A stretch of 47,190 nucleotides of DNA, taken from positions 1 to 47,190 of the IMG/VR virus record IMGVR_UViG_3300025112_000024. One strand, 5' to 3'. Position numbers and translations under genes: made by a program. Below the pieces are notes generated by a model. It had not been told where the DNA came from, did not search any database, and worked only from the letters and a program-made list of their open reading frames with translations. Shown piece after piece: positions 14,155 to 21,113 of this stretch; positions within the stretch are counted from its first letter, which is position 1, and every line of letters begins with the position of its first letter. Source of the stretch: a virus.

Positions 14155-14898
14155 ATGAAACCTATTGCGCCTGACCATGCTGCGAAGCAAGATATTATTG
14201 AAGAGTTATTAAAAAACTTGCCCCCTGAAACAGCGGTAGAGATCGAGCTACCTTCTGAAAACAGAGTATACACCTTACCTGACCCAGACGGAATTATCAC
14301 ATTACGTCCGATGACGTTTGAAGATGAGAAAGCGTTAGTAAGTGCTTCTCCTAATCAAGATCCAATTAATTTAATTATTGAAAGATGTACCACAAATATA
14401 AATATTGGGGATCTTCTTCCTATGGATAAATTATATATCATAATGAAATTAAGAGAAATTTCTTATGGAGATGATTATAATACACTTTTAATTTGTCCTT
14501 CCTGTAAATCGGAAAATCCCACAACTATTACATTATCAGATTTAAATGTTAATCCTGTGCCAGACGATTTTACTGACCCTATAGAAGTTATACTTCCTAC
14601 TCTTCAAAAAAATGTAAAAGTTCGTATTCCTAGGCTTCGAGACGAAAAATACATGAAAACTACTTCAGACGCATTATCCAATATTTGGAGATTTGTAGTT
14701 CAGATTGAAGATTATACAGATAAGCAGATCATTGTTGAAGTTTTGAAAAAACTCCCCATTAAGGATATGAGGACTATTTTAAATGCTATGAAAACCGATT
14801 ATGGAGTTGAAACAAAAATTCGATTTGACTGTAATTCCTGCAATACTCAATCAGTTATGGAGTTGCCTATCGACGCAAATTTTTTCGACGCGAATTAG
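14155..14898 (+). CDS. 26: gp26-type baseplate/tail assembly protein with zinc-ribbon cysteines
   Basis: 247 aa. It has the layout of the T4 gp26-like baseplate family: an early ITLRPMTFEDEKAL block, then paired cysteines CPSC (114-117) and CNSC (226-229) that would form a zinc ribbon closing on the C-terminal ELPIDANFF. T4 gp26 is about 208 aa and belongs to the baseplate hub; in many other tailed phages, proteins at this position are tail assembly chaperones with a frameshifted long form. The last codons here contain the slippery heptamer A_AAT_TTT (14877-14883), and a -1 frame continues for 60 codons (separate entry). SD GGAG lies 8 nt before the ATG. The helicase gene is divergent upstream. 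Confidence 0.75.
   Translation: MKPIAPDHAAKQDIIEELLKNLPPETAVEIELPSENRVYTLPDPDGIITLRPMTFEDEKALVSASPNQDPINLIIERCTTNINIGDLLPMDKLYIIMKLREISYGDDYNTLLICPSCKSENPTTITLSDLNVNPVPDDFTDPIEVILPTLQKNVKVRIPRLRDEKYMKTTSDALSNIWRFVVQIEDYTDKQIIVEVLKKLPIKDMRTILNAMKTDYGVETKIRFDCNSCNTQSVMELPIDANFFDAN
14877..14883 (+). other. candidate -1 ribosomal frameshift site A_AAT_TTT
   Basis: The heptamer fits X_XXY_YYZ (A AAT TTT) exactly in the reading frame of the gp26-type gene (codons GCA AAT TTT TTC), five codons before its TAG. Slippage by -1 re-pairs the tRNAs on AAA and TTT. Downstream there is a perfect stem TGTAGA/TCTACA (14912-14917 and 14924-14929), extendable by one G-T pair, but its 28-nt distance from the site is longer than the usual 5-9 nt, so its role is doubtful. 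Confidence 0.6.
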
Positions 14899-15065
14899 AG
14901 GGAGTTATTGATGTAGAGTCTCTTCTACAAGAAGCCTATATACTTGTGAACAAAGGTTTTTTCTCCTACAGTGACGTTAAGAGCATGACTAGATTGGAGA
15001 GAAGTTCCTTCATAAAGCTTTTAAAAGAAGATATAGAGAGACAAAACGATGCGATTAAACGGTGA
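14883..15065 (+). CDS. -1 frame extension of the gp26-type gene (about 60 codons)
   Basis: In the -1 frame the sequence stays open from before the slippery site to TGA 15063-15065 and overlaps the next gene by 17 nt. It encodes FRRELEGVIDVESLLQEAYI... followed by GFFSYSDVKSMTRLERSSFI and a Lys/Glu-rich helical end. The S..DV..M...ER..F pattern is like C-terminal parts of tail assembly chaperones and plausibly corresponds to the small gene that follows gene 26 in T4 (gene 51). A full frameshift product would be about 303 aa. No ATG with an SD is available near its start, which argues for frameshifting or coupling. Without it there would be an unexplained 150-nt gap in a very compact genome. 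Confidence 0.6.
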   Translation, partial: FRRELEGVIDVESLLQEAYILVNKGFFSYSDVKSMTRLERSSFIKLLKEDIERQNDAIKR

Positions 15066-16056
15066 AGATTTAGCTGACAGGCAGAATAGGCCAAGCGTTA
15101 CTCAAAAAGTAGCACTTAGAACTTTTTTTCTTAATGGAGGAGAATATGTTGATCCCTACGATGTTAGTAGTGTAGTAATCTTCTCTAAATTAGATAATTT
15201 AGCTCCTGACAGCTTAATAGATAGCTCTACTGGGTTACTCAAAAGTACTCTAACGTCCGATATGATTAAAATGTCGTATGGAATCTCAGGAACAGCCTTG
15301 GATCCCCATGATGGAGGGTATGATGCTACTAATGAACGATATAGAGTTACGTCGAATTTCTTAGCGGATGTTGGGTGGTTTCCCGCTTATGTCCCCTCTC
15401 CCGAAGCTAGTGGTATTATACGACTAGGGGTTGGGGATTATTTATGCGTTCTTGATGGGCAGTTAGATCTTTCTGGCGCTTACTACTTGAATAGTAGTTC
15501 TATCGAAGTGCAGAACTCTGCTTCGGCTGTTTTAGATTACCTTGATGCTTGGACGGTTAAGTTTGCTCAAGCCTCTGAATATCAAGTTATGATAAATGGT
15601 TTTCATCTGTATAATGATGTATTTCAAACTATAACAGAGCCCGTTATATTTACGGCTACAAGTCGCTTAATAAATAAACATGTTAATTTAGGCTCACAGA
15701 CAGACTTAAAAGTAACAACCGATATTACAGTCCAAAATGGCAGTTTAGATAATGCAACAAAAGCTATCCTAGAGGACTCTGCTTTAAGAAACGCGCAATT
15801 TAGGGTTCAAAAACTTAATGACGGTTCTGTTAATTTACCTGCACGAGTGACCGTAGTTGAGTATAGTGATAGCGAAGGCAGCATTACAGTAACATCAGAT
15901 AACACCATGCTATACAATTTTGATACCCAAGCTATCGCTACAGCAGCCAATGCCGATACTTTGGGAGGACCAGTGGGGACATATGCTATAAATTGTGCAT
16001 ACTCGATTTTAGATCAAAATTATATTCAAGGTCCCTTCTACTTTGTTATAAAATAA
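15049..16056 (+). CDS. unknown virion protein (335 aa)
   Basis: Mostly beta-type composition (Ser, Thr, Asn, Val) with no cysteine motif or membrane helix. N-terminal SVTQKVALRTFFLNGGEYVDPY, then VSSVVIFSKLDN, and repeated strand-like segments to the C-terminal YIQGPFYFVIK. Regular strands and position between a tail assembly gene and the tape measure suggest a tail or neck component. I do not recognise it as sheath, tube or neck. Its ATG lies inside the frameshift extension of the upstream gene, preceded by AGAGAG. Confidence 0.6.
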   Translation: MRLNGEDLADRQNRPSVTQKVALRTFFLNGGEYVDPYDVSSVVIFSKLDNLAPDSLIDSSTGLLKSTLTSDMIKMSYGISGTALDPHDGGYDATNERYRVTSNFLADVGWFPAYVPSPEASGIIRLGVGDYLCVLDGQLDLSGAYYLNSSSIEVQNSASAVLDYLDAWTVKFAQASEYQVMINGFHLYNDVFQTITEPVIFTATSRLINKHVNLGSQTDLKVTTDITVQNGSLDNATKAILEDSALRNAQFRVQKLNDGSVNLPARVTVVEYSDSEGSITVTSDNTMLYNFDTQAIATAANADTLGGPVGTYAINCAYSILDQNYIQGPFYFVIK

Positions 16057-19184: not shown

Positions 19185-21113
19185 ATGGTAATACTGGAGT
19201 CACTAACACAAGCCACTGTAGCACTTACTGATGTGATGAAGAATAGTGTGCGTATAGGCACACAAATAGATGAATCTCTTCGTGGGTTTGGTACTTCTTT
19301 TGCATTAGACGGGAAAGAGATTTCAGATCAGTTGCGAGGTCTTAATGGCACTATAAGTGATCGTATGGCTCCTCTTTTGCTGGGAATGCAGGCAGGACTT
19401 CAAGGAAATATCGCAGGGGTTGCCTCACTTGTTAACCAGCAAAAAGTAACAGAAACAGCCTTTAGAGGAACAATGAAGGCGTTTGCTAAATTAGATGCTG
19501 TGATGGGCCTGAGCCGAGAGGCTAACAACCGACTCTTTAGGGGGATGGAAGATTTAGGGGCTGAGTACGGGATGAGTACCGATCACTTGGTTAAAGCTGT
19601 TGAAGGGTTATCGGACAATATGATTGATATGGATTTACTGGGGATGCCTGGGCATGTTGTCGATGCTATAGTCGAAGTAACTGCGATGCTCCCACCTGCG
19701 CTACATGGGCAATTTAAAAAGGTTACTGATCTTATCTTAGGCACTAGCATGAAAGCCCTGCAGCAACGGACAGCTTTAGGTATGGAGGGAGCCCAACAGC
19801 AGCTTATAAACTCTCTAAATACTGCGACAGCCGTTGAGATATTCATTAGAAATATAGGGGTAGGTACTGGGGTCTTTGAATCTATGGGTAAAGGAAGTAC
19901 TGTCGCTATTGCTGCAGCTAAAAACGCTCTTGGAACTACGGCAGCTATGATGCCCGCTATTAATCGAGCCTTAACAGAAGAAGTACGTGTGCGTAGAGAG
20001 ACAACGGCAGACTTCAGAGCAGCGTGGTCTGTTATTAAGAATGATATTCTTGCCGAATTCGAGCTTGTTTTTATGGAGAAGCTCACTCCTATCCTTGTTA
20101 AAGTTGCTGAAAAATTTAAACTAATGAGTGATGATCTACTTCCTAAATTTGGGCAGTGGCTTGAAATGGCAATAAATGTTCTTATAGGGTGGGTAGCACT
20201 TCTCCCAGGAGTTCTCATAGATTTCACTAATGCGGTAGATGGAGTGTGGAAAGGTTTAACGGCTATTGATTGGGGACACCTGTGGATGCAATTTAAGGTC
20301 GGCGCTGCATCTATATGGGATCGCACAAAAGAGATTTTCGTATTTGCAGGGGATACGATGTCTGTAATCTTTAGTGATGTAAGCGCACGAATCTCACTAA
20401 TCGTGGACAAGATTTCAGCAAGCGTAGACGTACTAACTTCTGCGTTTGATGTAGGCTCACAAAAACTAAGCATAGCTATTGCCTCCTTAGATCCGAGATC
20501 ACATATGGGACAGAGGCTCCCCTCAGGACTCCCTTTCGGTACCGACGAGTATAAGAATAAGGAGTTTATGGAATGGGAGCTTAAGGGCCTACAGACGCAG
20601 TTGGATCAAGCTAGAGGAGCGCGAAAGGGATTAGGAAGTTCTATGGGTCCTATGGGCATGAATTTACCTACCCTCTCCGACTGGGCAGGCCCAGACACTA
20701 TGTTAGGTATGACGGGCGATAAGTTCGGGGAGAAGTACGGAAAATCAGTAGGTGAGGGTTTTATAGAGGGACTTGGGAAGGGAGATTTAGGTACGAAATT
20801 ATTTGGTACTTGGCCCGATATAGTCGCACAGCTTTTAGGGCGGACTGCTGAAAATACGGGAAAGGTTGCTGATAAAGTAGATAATGAGGGGTGGGATACT
20901 TCTCCTACACGAATGGGGTTCTTTGCTAGTCAATTAGTGCGGGATGTGGCTACGGTGGCTGGTATTCCTTTAGAGGCAGATACTCTTGGTGGCGCAAAAG
21001 AGCGAGAGGAGACAACTCACGAGTTGTTAGTAGAAATTAGAGACGCACTAAAGACCTACCCAGGTGGGGCAGATATGTGGGAGAACCGACCAGTGGAGGT
21101 AGGGGAGTTTTAA
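19185..21113 (+). CDS. tail tape measure-type protein (642 aa)
   Basis: Long, mainly helical protein with Met/Gly/Ala-rich segments (MAPLLLGMQAGLQGN, GTTAAMMPAINRALTEEV) and a hydrophobic central helix pair (WLEMAINVLIGWVALLPGVL, about 325-345) as seen in tape measures. It lies just before the tube-baseplate junction gene. At 642 aa it is similar to T4 gp29 (590 aa), implying by the usual about 1.5 angstrom per residue rule a tail of roughly 95-100 nm, if the whole chain is extended. The C-terminal third is Gly-rich and polar. It determines tail length and occupies the tube lumen. Confidence 0.75.
   Translation: MVILESLTQATVALTDVMKNSVRIGTQIDESLRGFGTSFALDGKEISDQLRGLNGTISDRMAPLLLGMQAGLQGNIAGVASLVNQQKVTETAFRGTMKAFAKLDAVMGLSREANNRLFRGMEDLGAEYGMSTDHLVKAVEGLSDNMIDMDLLGMPGHVVDAIVEVTAMLPPALHGQFKKVTDLILGTSMKALQQRTALGMEGAQQQLINSLNTATAVEIFIRNIGVGTGVFESMGKGSTVAIAAAKNALGTTAAMMPAINRALTEEVRVRRETTADFRAAWSVIKNDILAEFELVFMEKLTPILVKVAEKFKLMSDDLLPKFGQWLEMAINVLIGWVALLPGVLIDFTNAVDGVWKGLTAIDWGHLWMQFKVGAASIWDRTKEIFVFAGDTMSVIFSDVSARISLIVDKISASVDVLTSAFDVGSQKLSIAIASLDPRSHMGQRLPSGLPFGTDEYKNKEFMEWELKGLQTQLDQARGARKGLGSSMGPMGMNLPTLSDWAGPDTMLGMTGDKFGEKYGKSVGEGFIEGLGKGDLGTKLFGTWPDIVAQLLGRTAENTGKVADKVDNEGWDTSPTRMGFFASQLVRDVATVAGIPLEADTLGGAKEREETTHELLVEIRDALKTYPGGADMWENRPVEVGEF

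Follow-up and report, generated by a model that had tools for sequence, protein, structure and literature searches.

A conserved slippery heptamer at a T4 gp26-type gene marks a probable frameshifting tail assembly chaperone locus

Does the T4 gp26-type gene at positions 14155–14898 of a viral DNA stretch of 47,190 nucleotides (IMG/VR record IMGVR_UViG_3300025112_000024, hereafter the window) yield a single protein, or do some ribosomes change frame near its stop codon and add a C-terminal extension? Our analysis indicates that the gene is very probably a frameshifting tail assembly chaperone (TAC) locus of a T4-related myovirus, which would encode a TAC-N of 247 aa and a TAC-NC of 303 aa. The features on which this reading is built are listed here.

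14155–14898, + strand: T4 gp26-type gene, proposed TAC-N, 247 aa (PF12322, PHROG_150, AlphaFold2, Foldseek)
14877–14883, + strand: A_AAT_TTT heptamer, overlapping T_TTT_TTC, in X_XXY_YYZ phase; its AAT is not kept clade-wide
14880–14886, + strand: T_TTT_TTC slippery heptamer, the invariant site, in phase and conserved in both homologue sets
14896–14898, + strand: zero-frame stop codon TAG (read from the sequence)
14886–15065, + strand: −1-frame extension, 59 aa plus stop, proposed TAC-C domain (conserved pattern, PHROG_987, AlphaFold2)
15049–16056, + strand: next gene, 335 aa, overlapping the extension by 17 nt; no family match of useful significance
19185–21113, + strand: candidate tape measure protein, 642 aa (N-terminal sequence and composition)

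The gp26-type gene and its 3′ end

The product of gene 14155–14898 matches the T4_baseplate family PF12322 (E=6.3e-23; 82 bits against a curated cut-off of 24.5) and the baseplate hub family PHROG_150 (E=5e-29). An AlphaFold2 model of the product, made with 33 homologues as input, has a pLDDT of 89.8. When this model was searched against BFVD using Foldseek, the top viral structure matches were T4-like baseplate hub proteins, the best being the SP-15 baseplate hub subunit (E=2.4e-18, TM 0.78), and gp26 of Aeromonas phage 25 was matched at 1.3e-6. The Foldseek search against the PDB returned nothing significant; HK97 TAC (2ob9, E=6.6) and yqbN (3klu, E=3.3) were found there with low rmsd, neither at a significant level. 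The gene is a T4 gp26-type gene, and the identity given to it in a preliminary description of this DNA is thus borne out by PF12322, PHROG_150 and the predicted fold.

The window also contains a T4-type portal and large terminase together with several baseplate genes, and the virus is therefore a T4-related myovirus. The 642-aa ORF at 19185–21113 has no PHROG or other family match; its N-terminus resembles that of a tape measure protein, which makes it a candidate for this role. The candidate gene lies ~4 kb downstream of the gp26-type gene, with other genes between them.

The 3′ end of the gp26-type gene reads ...GCA AAT TTT TTC GAC GCG AAT TAG and contains two overlapping canonical in-phase −1 heptamers, namely A_AAT_TTT and, three bases downstream, T_TTT_TTC. 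A slip at either heptamer would give the same peptide, ...DANFF|RRELEGVIDVESLLQEAYILVNKGFFSYSDVKSMTRLERSSFIKLLKEDIERQNDAIKR, and the fusion product would be 303 aa long, compared with 247 aa for the unshifted short form. No stop codon interrupts the −1 frame between 14835 and 15062, which leaves 59–60 codons beyond the slip (60 when counted from 14883), and its stop codon at 15063–15065 gives a 17-nt overlap with the gene that starts at ATG 15049. The preliminary description had placed A_AAT_TTT in the right phase near the stop codon and had reported a −1 frame of 60 open codons with a 17-nt overlap, and each of these points holds in the sequence.

Conservation of the slippery heptamer and the −1 frame

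The homologue scan used the gp26 protein alone as query and was thus blind to the extension. It recovered 65 environmental relatives of the 14155–14898 protein, with identities of 38–100%. All 65 of these clade homologues carry T_TTT_TTY in phase, 10–25 nt before the zero-frame stop, and in all 65 the −1 frame is protein-like and open for 51–63 codons beyond that stop. In a second, independent set, comprising relatives of cyanophage S-RIM8 gp26, T_TTT_TTC and a −1 extension are present in 80/80 sequences, two short extensions stopping at contig ends. The same heptamer and an open −1 frame also occur in XacN1, LR756511, ORM_20, PA5oct and S-RIM8. The −1 frameshift suggested in the preliminary description therefore finds both its heptamer type and its frame kept throughout the two sets, with no conserved separate start for the downstream frame.

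Codon-level statistics were obtained for the 55 distinct clade sequences. All 55 use TTT as the slip Phe codon, compared with 77% TTT elsewhere in these genes (p=5e-7 if independent), while the A-site codon is TTC in 43/55. The codon preceding the slip TTT is AAT in 46 of the 55, the others having GAT, AGT or GGT. Synonymous constraint in the clade also peaks at the slip site (1.76x). The heptamer first put forward as the slip site, A_AAT_TTT, is indeed present and in phase in the window, but the invariant site is T_TTT_TTY, A_AAT_TTT being missing in part of the clade.

Past the zero-frame stop, the −1 frame differs among homologues by 0.35/0.23/0.49 at codon positions 1/2/3 and thus shows a codon-like pattern of substitution; it is under purifying selection. 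The encoded extension carries the pattern E..L..EAYILV..F.Y.DVK.MTR.ER..F, conserved across the 55 distinct homologues, and matches PHROG_987 at E=0.0023; a known-phage search with PHROG_987 gave no useful match. The extension is predicted by AlphaFold2 to form a small helical domain (pLDDT 84).

Probable origin of the proposed extended product and a constrained element downstream

In six homologues (L050, L054, L056 and L059–L061), a −1-frame stop codon stands directly before the heptamer, and the shift is therefore confined between the heptamer and the zero-frame stop. We infer the following course of events, including the occurrence and efficiency of the shift and a chaperone function of the products. 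Most ribosomes would terminate at 14896, giving TAC-N (247 aa). A minority would slip at T_TTT_TTC (14880–14886), where the two Phe tRNAs would move back one base, from UUU-UUC to UUU-UUU, and these ribosomes would read on to 15065, giving TAC-NC (303 aa) with its C-terminal helical TAC-C domain. If lambda gpG/gpGT is a guide, the tape measure protein may be coated by many copies of TAC-N and few of TAC-NC, and the tail tube subunit may be recruited by the TAC-C part.

The −1 frame could instead be a separate small gene for a stand-alone gp51-like protein, translated either from a start of its own or by ribosomes that re-initiate once past the zero-frame stop. The window does contain a GTG at 14946, and the public annotation of S-RIM8 has a 46-aa 'baseplate hub assembly catalyst' that begins at an internal ATG. 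In most homologues, however, the first −1-frame ATG after the slip lies at ~+105 nt, beyond the conserved EAYILV core, and homologue L064 has no ATG, GTG or TTG anywhere in its −1 frame. No start codon for separate synthesis of the extension is conserved among the homologues, in agreement with the earlier remark that the extension has no start codon with SD of its own. Furthermore, simple re-initiation is excluded because the codons for the conserved −1-frame residues E and L lie ahead of the zero-frame stop, and a separate gene would leave the invariant T_TTT_TTY unaccounted for. We regard a separate gene as largely refuted and extremely improbable.

A one-base insertion into the mRNA would produce the same frame change, and there is a homopolymer run at the site in which RNA polymerase might add a base, such that some mRNAs encode the fusion. 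Transcriptional slippage of this kind usually needs runs longer than six T, whereas most runs here are just six T and end in C (TTC in 43/55 of the distinct clade sequences and in 80/80 heptamers of the second group); conservation extends to the reading phase of a tandem-slippage heptamer and not to the run length, and we consider transcriptional slippage very unlikely. Slippery motifs also arise randomly in AT-rich DNA, and nine of them, in any phase, lie inside gene 14155–14898, as might be expected if a heptamer had come by chance to stand before an open frame, or if the frame reflected a sequencing error or a decayed gene. Such an origin, to which we give a negligible probability, is refuted by the fact that over 145 homologues keep the site and that selection on their −1 frame is purifying, and by the rarity of the motif, since 14155–14898 is the only one of the 30 forward window genes checked that has an in-phase −1 heptamer close to its stop.

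Stimulatory RNA structures are a common but non-obligatory feature of −1 frameshift sites, and frameshifting in certain tailed phages seems independent of stimulators (PMC5009743). For the ribosomal frameshift proposed here, RNAalifold predicted no conserved pairs among the homologues. A downstream hairpin seen in some homologues, CTAGAAGAAG...CTTCTTCTAG, was rejected as a stimulator, as it shows no compensatory changes and is broken in many sequences. Within the extension there is a further conserved feature.

14931–14942, + strand: hyper-conserved GAAGCCTATATA element inside the extension, 12 nt (synonymous constraint)

The element is the strongest synonymous-constraint peak (1.91x) and keeps a fixed place, 44 nt downstream of the heptamer. 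Specifically, its synonymous sites are nearly invariant in the clade, with Ile encoded by ATA in 47/47 and Ala by GCC in 45/48. The sequence GCCTATATA is found in place 48 times; elsewhere in 307 kb of clade sequence there is a single further copy on the + strand and none on the − strand. No covarying structure was found around GAAGCCTATATA, and the Rfam search gave no match to a stimulator or to the element. GAAGCCTATATA might be a new kind of cis element, specific in sequence and distinct from a conventional hairpin or pseudoknot, through which the frameshift ratio is set, although we hold this to be rather unlikely; a phage or host factor might bind it, for example, or it might pair over a long range. 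To that extent, the element offers a lead on how the ratio of short to long chaperone is set. A role of GCCTATATA as a general phage promoter was considered separately and discarded, given that CCTATATA is not enriched in the window and that GCCTATATA occurs off-site once in 307 kb.

Short and long chaperone forms in other phages

Phage lambda makes a short chaperone, gpG, and a rarer, −1-frame-extended form, gpGT (PMC5009743). The window gene resembles this pair in that it would combine a short form with a −1-extended form; the likeness drawn is one of layout, and in the window other genes separate it from the candidate tape measure gene. A 2016 review described G-T frameshifting as widely conserved 'except T4' (PMC5009743). 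For T4-like phages, poly-T frameshift signals in TAC-N genes are attributed to Vladimirov, Gautam and Davidson (2022, Virology 566:9–15) in PMC12846349, and separate short and long TAC genes in some of these phages are attributed to the same study in PMC10885494. As represented in such citing accounts, the T4-like TAC genes are gp26-type, with a poly-T −1 site near the 3′ end and a −1-frame C-terminal extension, like the window gene. The preliminary description had called frameshifting at a gp26-type gene less familiar, a view that does not survive, as both the frameshifting TACs of T4-like phages and the two-gene alternative are, by these accounts, already in the literature. Because both solutions have been described, the window gene is a well-supported new example of a known mechanism. 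The 2022 study may not have covered the present environmental clade, and GAAGCCTATATA is unmentioned in the passages that cite it. A TAC locus with a conserved −1 shift at GTTTTT and a −1 frame unbroken in all genomes has also been reported for Pakpunavirus Adele/Andersonviridae (PMC12846349), which belong to different phage families and use GTTTTT as opposed to the T_TTT_TTY found here.

The G/GT frameshift rule was long said not to hold for T4 (PMC5009743). Both T4 gene 26 and T4 gene 51 match PF12322 (8.2e-65 and 1.8e-53, respectively), the family of the window gene. The first ~200 residues of T4 gp51 are a second copy of the PF12322 domain, and the C-terminal tail that follows can be aligned in register with the extension, the pairwise signal being weak (P about 0.03). 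When the fusion profile was set directly against T4 gp26 or gp51 in pairwise HH comparisons, the signal was also too weak to decide. Of the 11 scored frames that bear the extension in distant phages, T4 gp51 and Va1 gp51 included, 7 ranked in the top 25 when a profile was run against 1282 six-frame segments taken from 12 records, and Va1 gp51 came first (hypergeometric 1e-10, a value that ignores ORF length; the SP-15 frame is absent from the 11). The 'gene-51-like tail' of the preliminary description has weaker support than the gp26 assignment: gp51 is a full second PF12322 domain plus a tail with some resemblance to the extension. Among the records compared, only T4 and Va1 have two PF12322 genes, and both carry a gp51-type long gene. 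In T4 the short and long forms would come from two genes on opposite strands, in contrast to one gene plus a frameshift in the window, and the two T4 genes fit a duplication in place of frameshifting. T4 genes 26 and 51 look like paralogues for the short and long chaperone forms (gp51 is L073 6480–7229).

Extensions in the +1 frame were found at three loci, each unannotated or partly annotated.

L067 3700–3920: Bacillus phage SP-15
L069 3650–3893: Listeria phage LIS04
L070 3700–3995: Streptococcus phage GXN1

The gp26 genes of SP-15 and LIS04, each with an unannotated extension, have the tail tube gene on one side and the tape measure gene on the other, which is the position of lambda G/GT. 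SP-15, LIS04 and GXN1 (three distinct sequences) share NCC_CGA_TTY close to the junction, which suggests +1 frameshifting; a scan for relatives of SP-15 gp26 recovered SP-15 alone. The comparison fits one chaperone family that makes short and long forms in three ways across T4-like groups, namely through a −1 shift in most of the T4-like groups examined, through a +1-frame extension in Thornevirus and relatives, and from two genes in T4 and Va1.

The 46-aa 'baseplate hub assembly catalyst' of S-RIM8 (L075 4158–4357) probably corresponds to a truncated −1-frame half of a gp26 product made by frameshifting, and small genes labelled 'gp51' or 'baseplate hub assembly catalyst' in cyanophage records, S-RIM8 being one example, are probably mis-annotated halves. 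Microcystis phage Mel-JY01 (L076 4240–4476) has its extension in the +1 (or −2) frame after a gp26-like gene, close to TTT TTT TGG.
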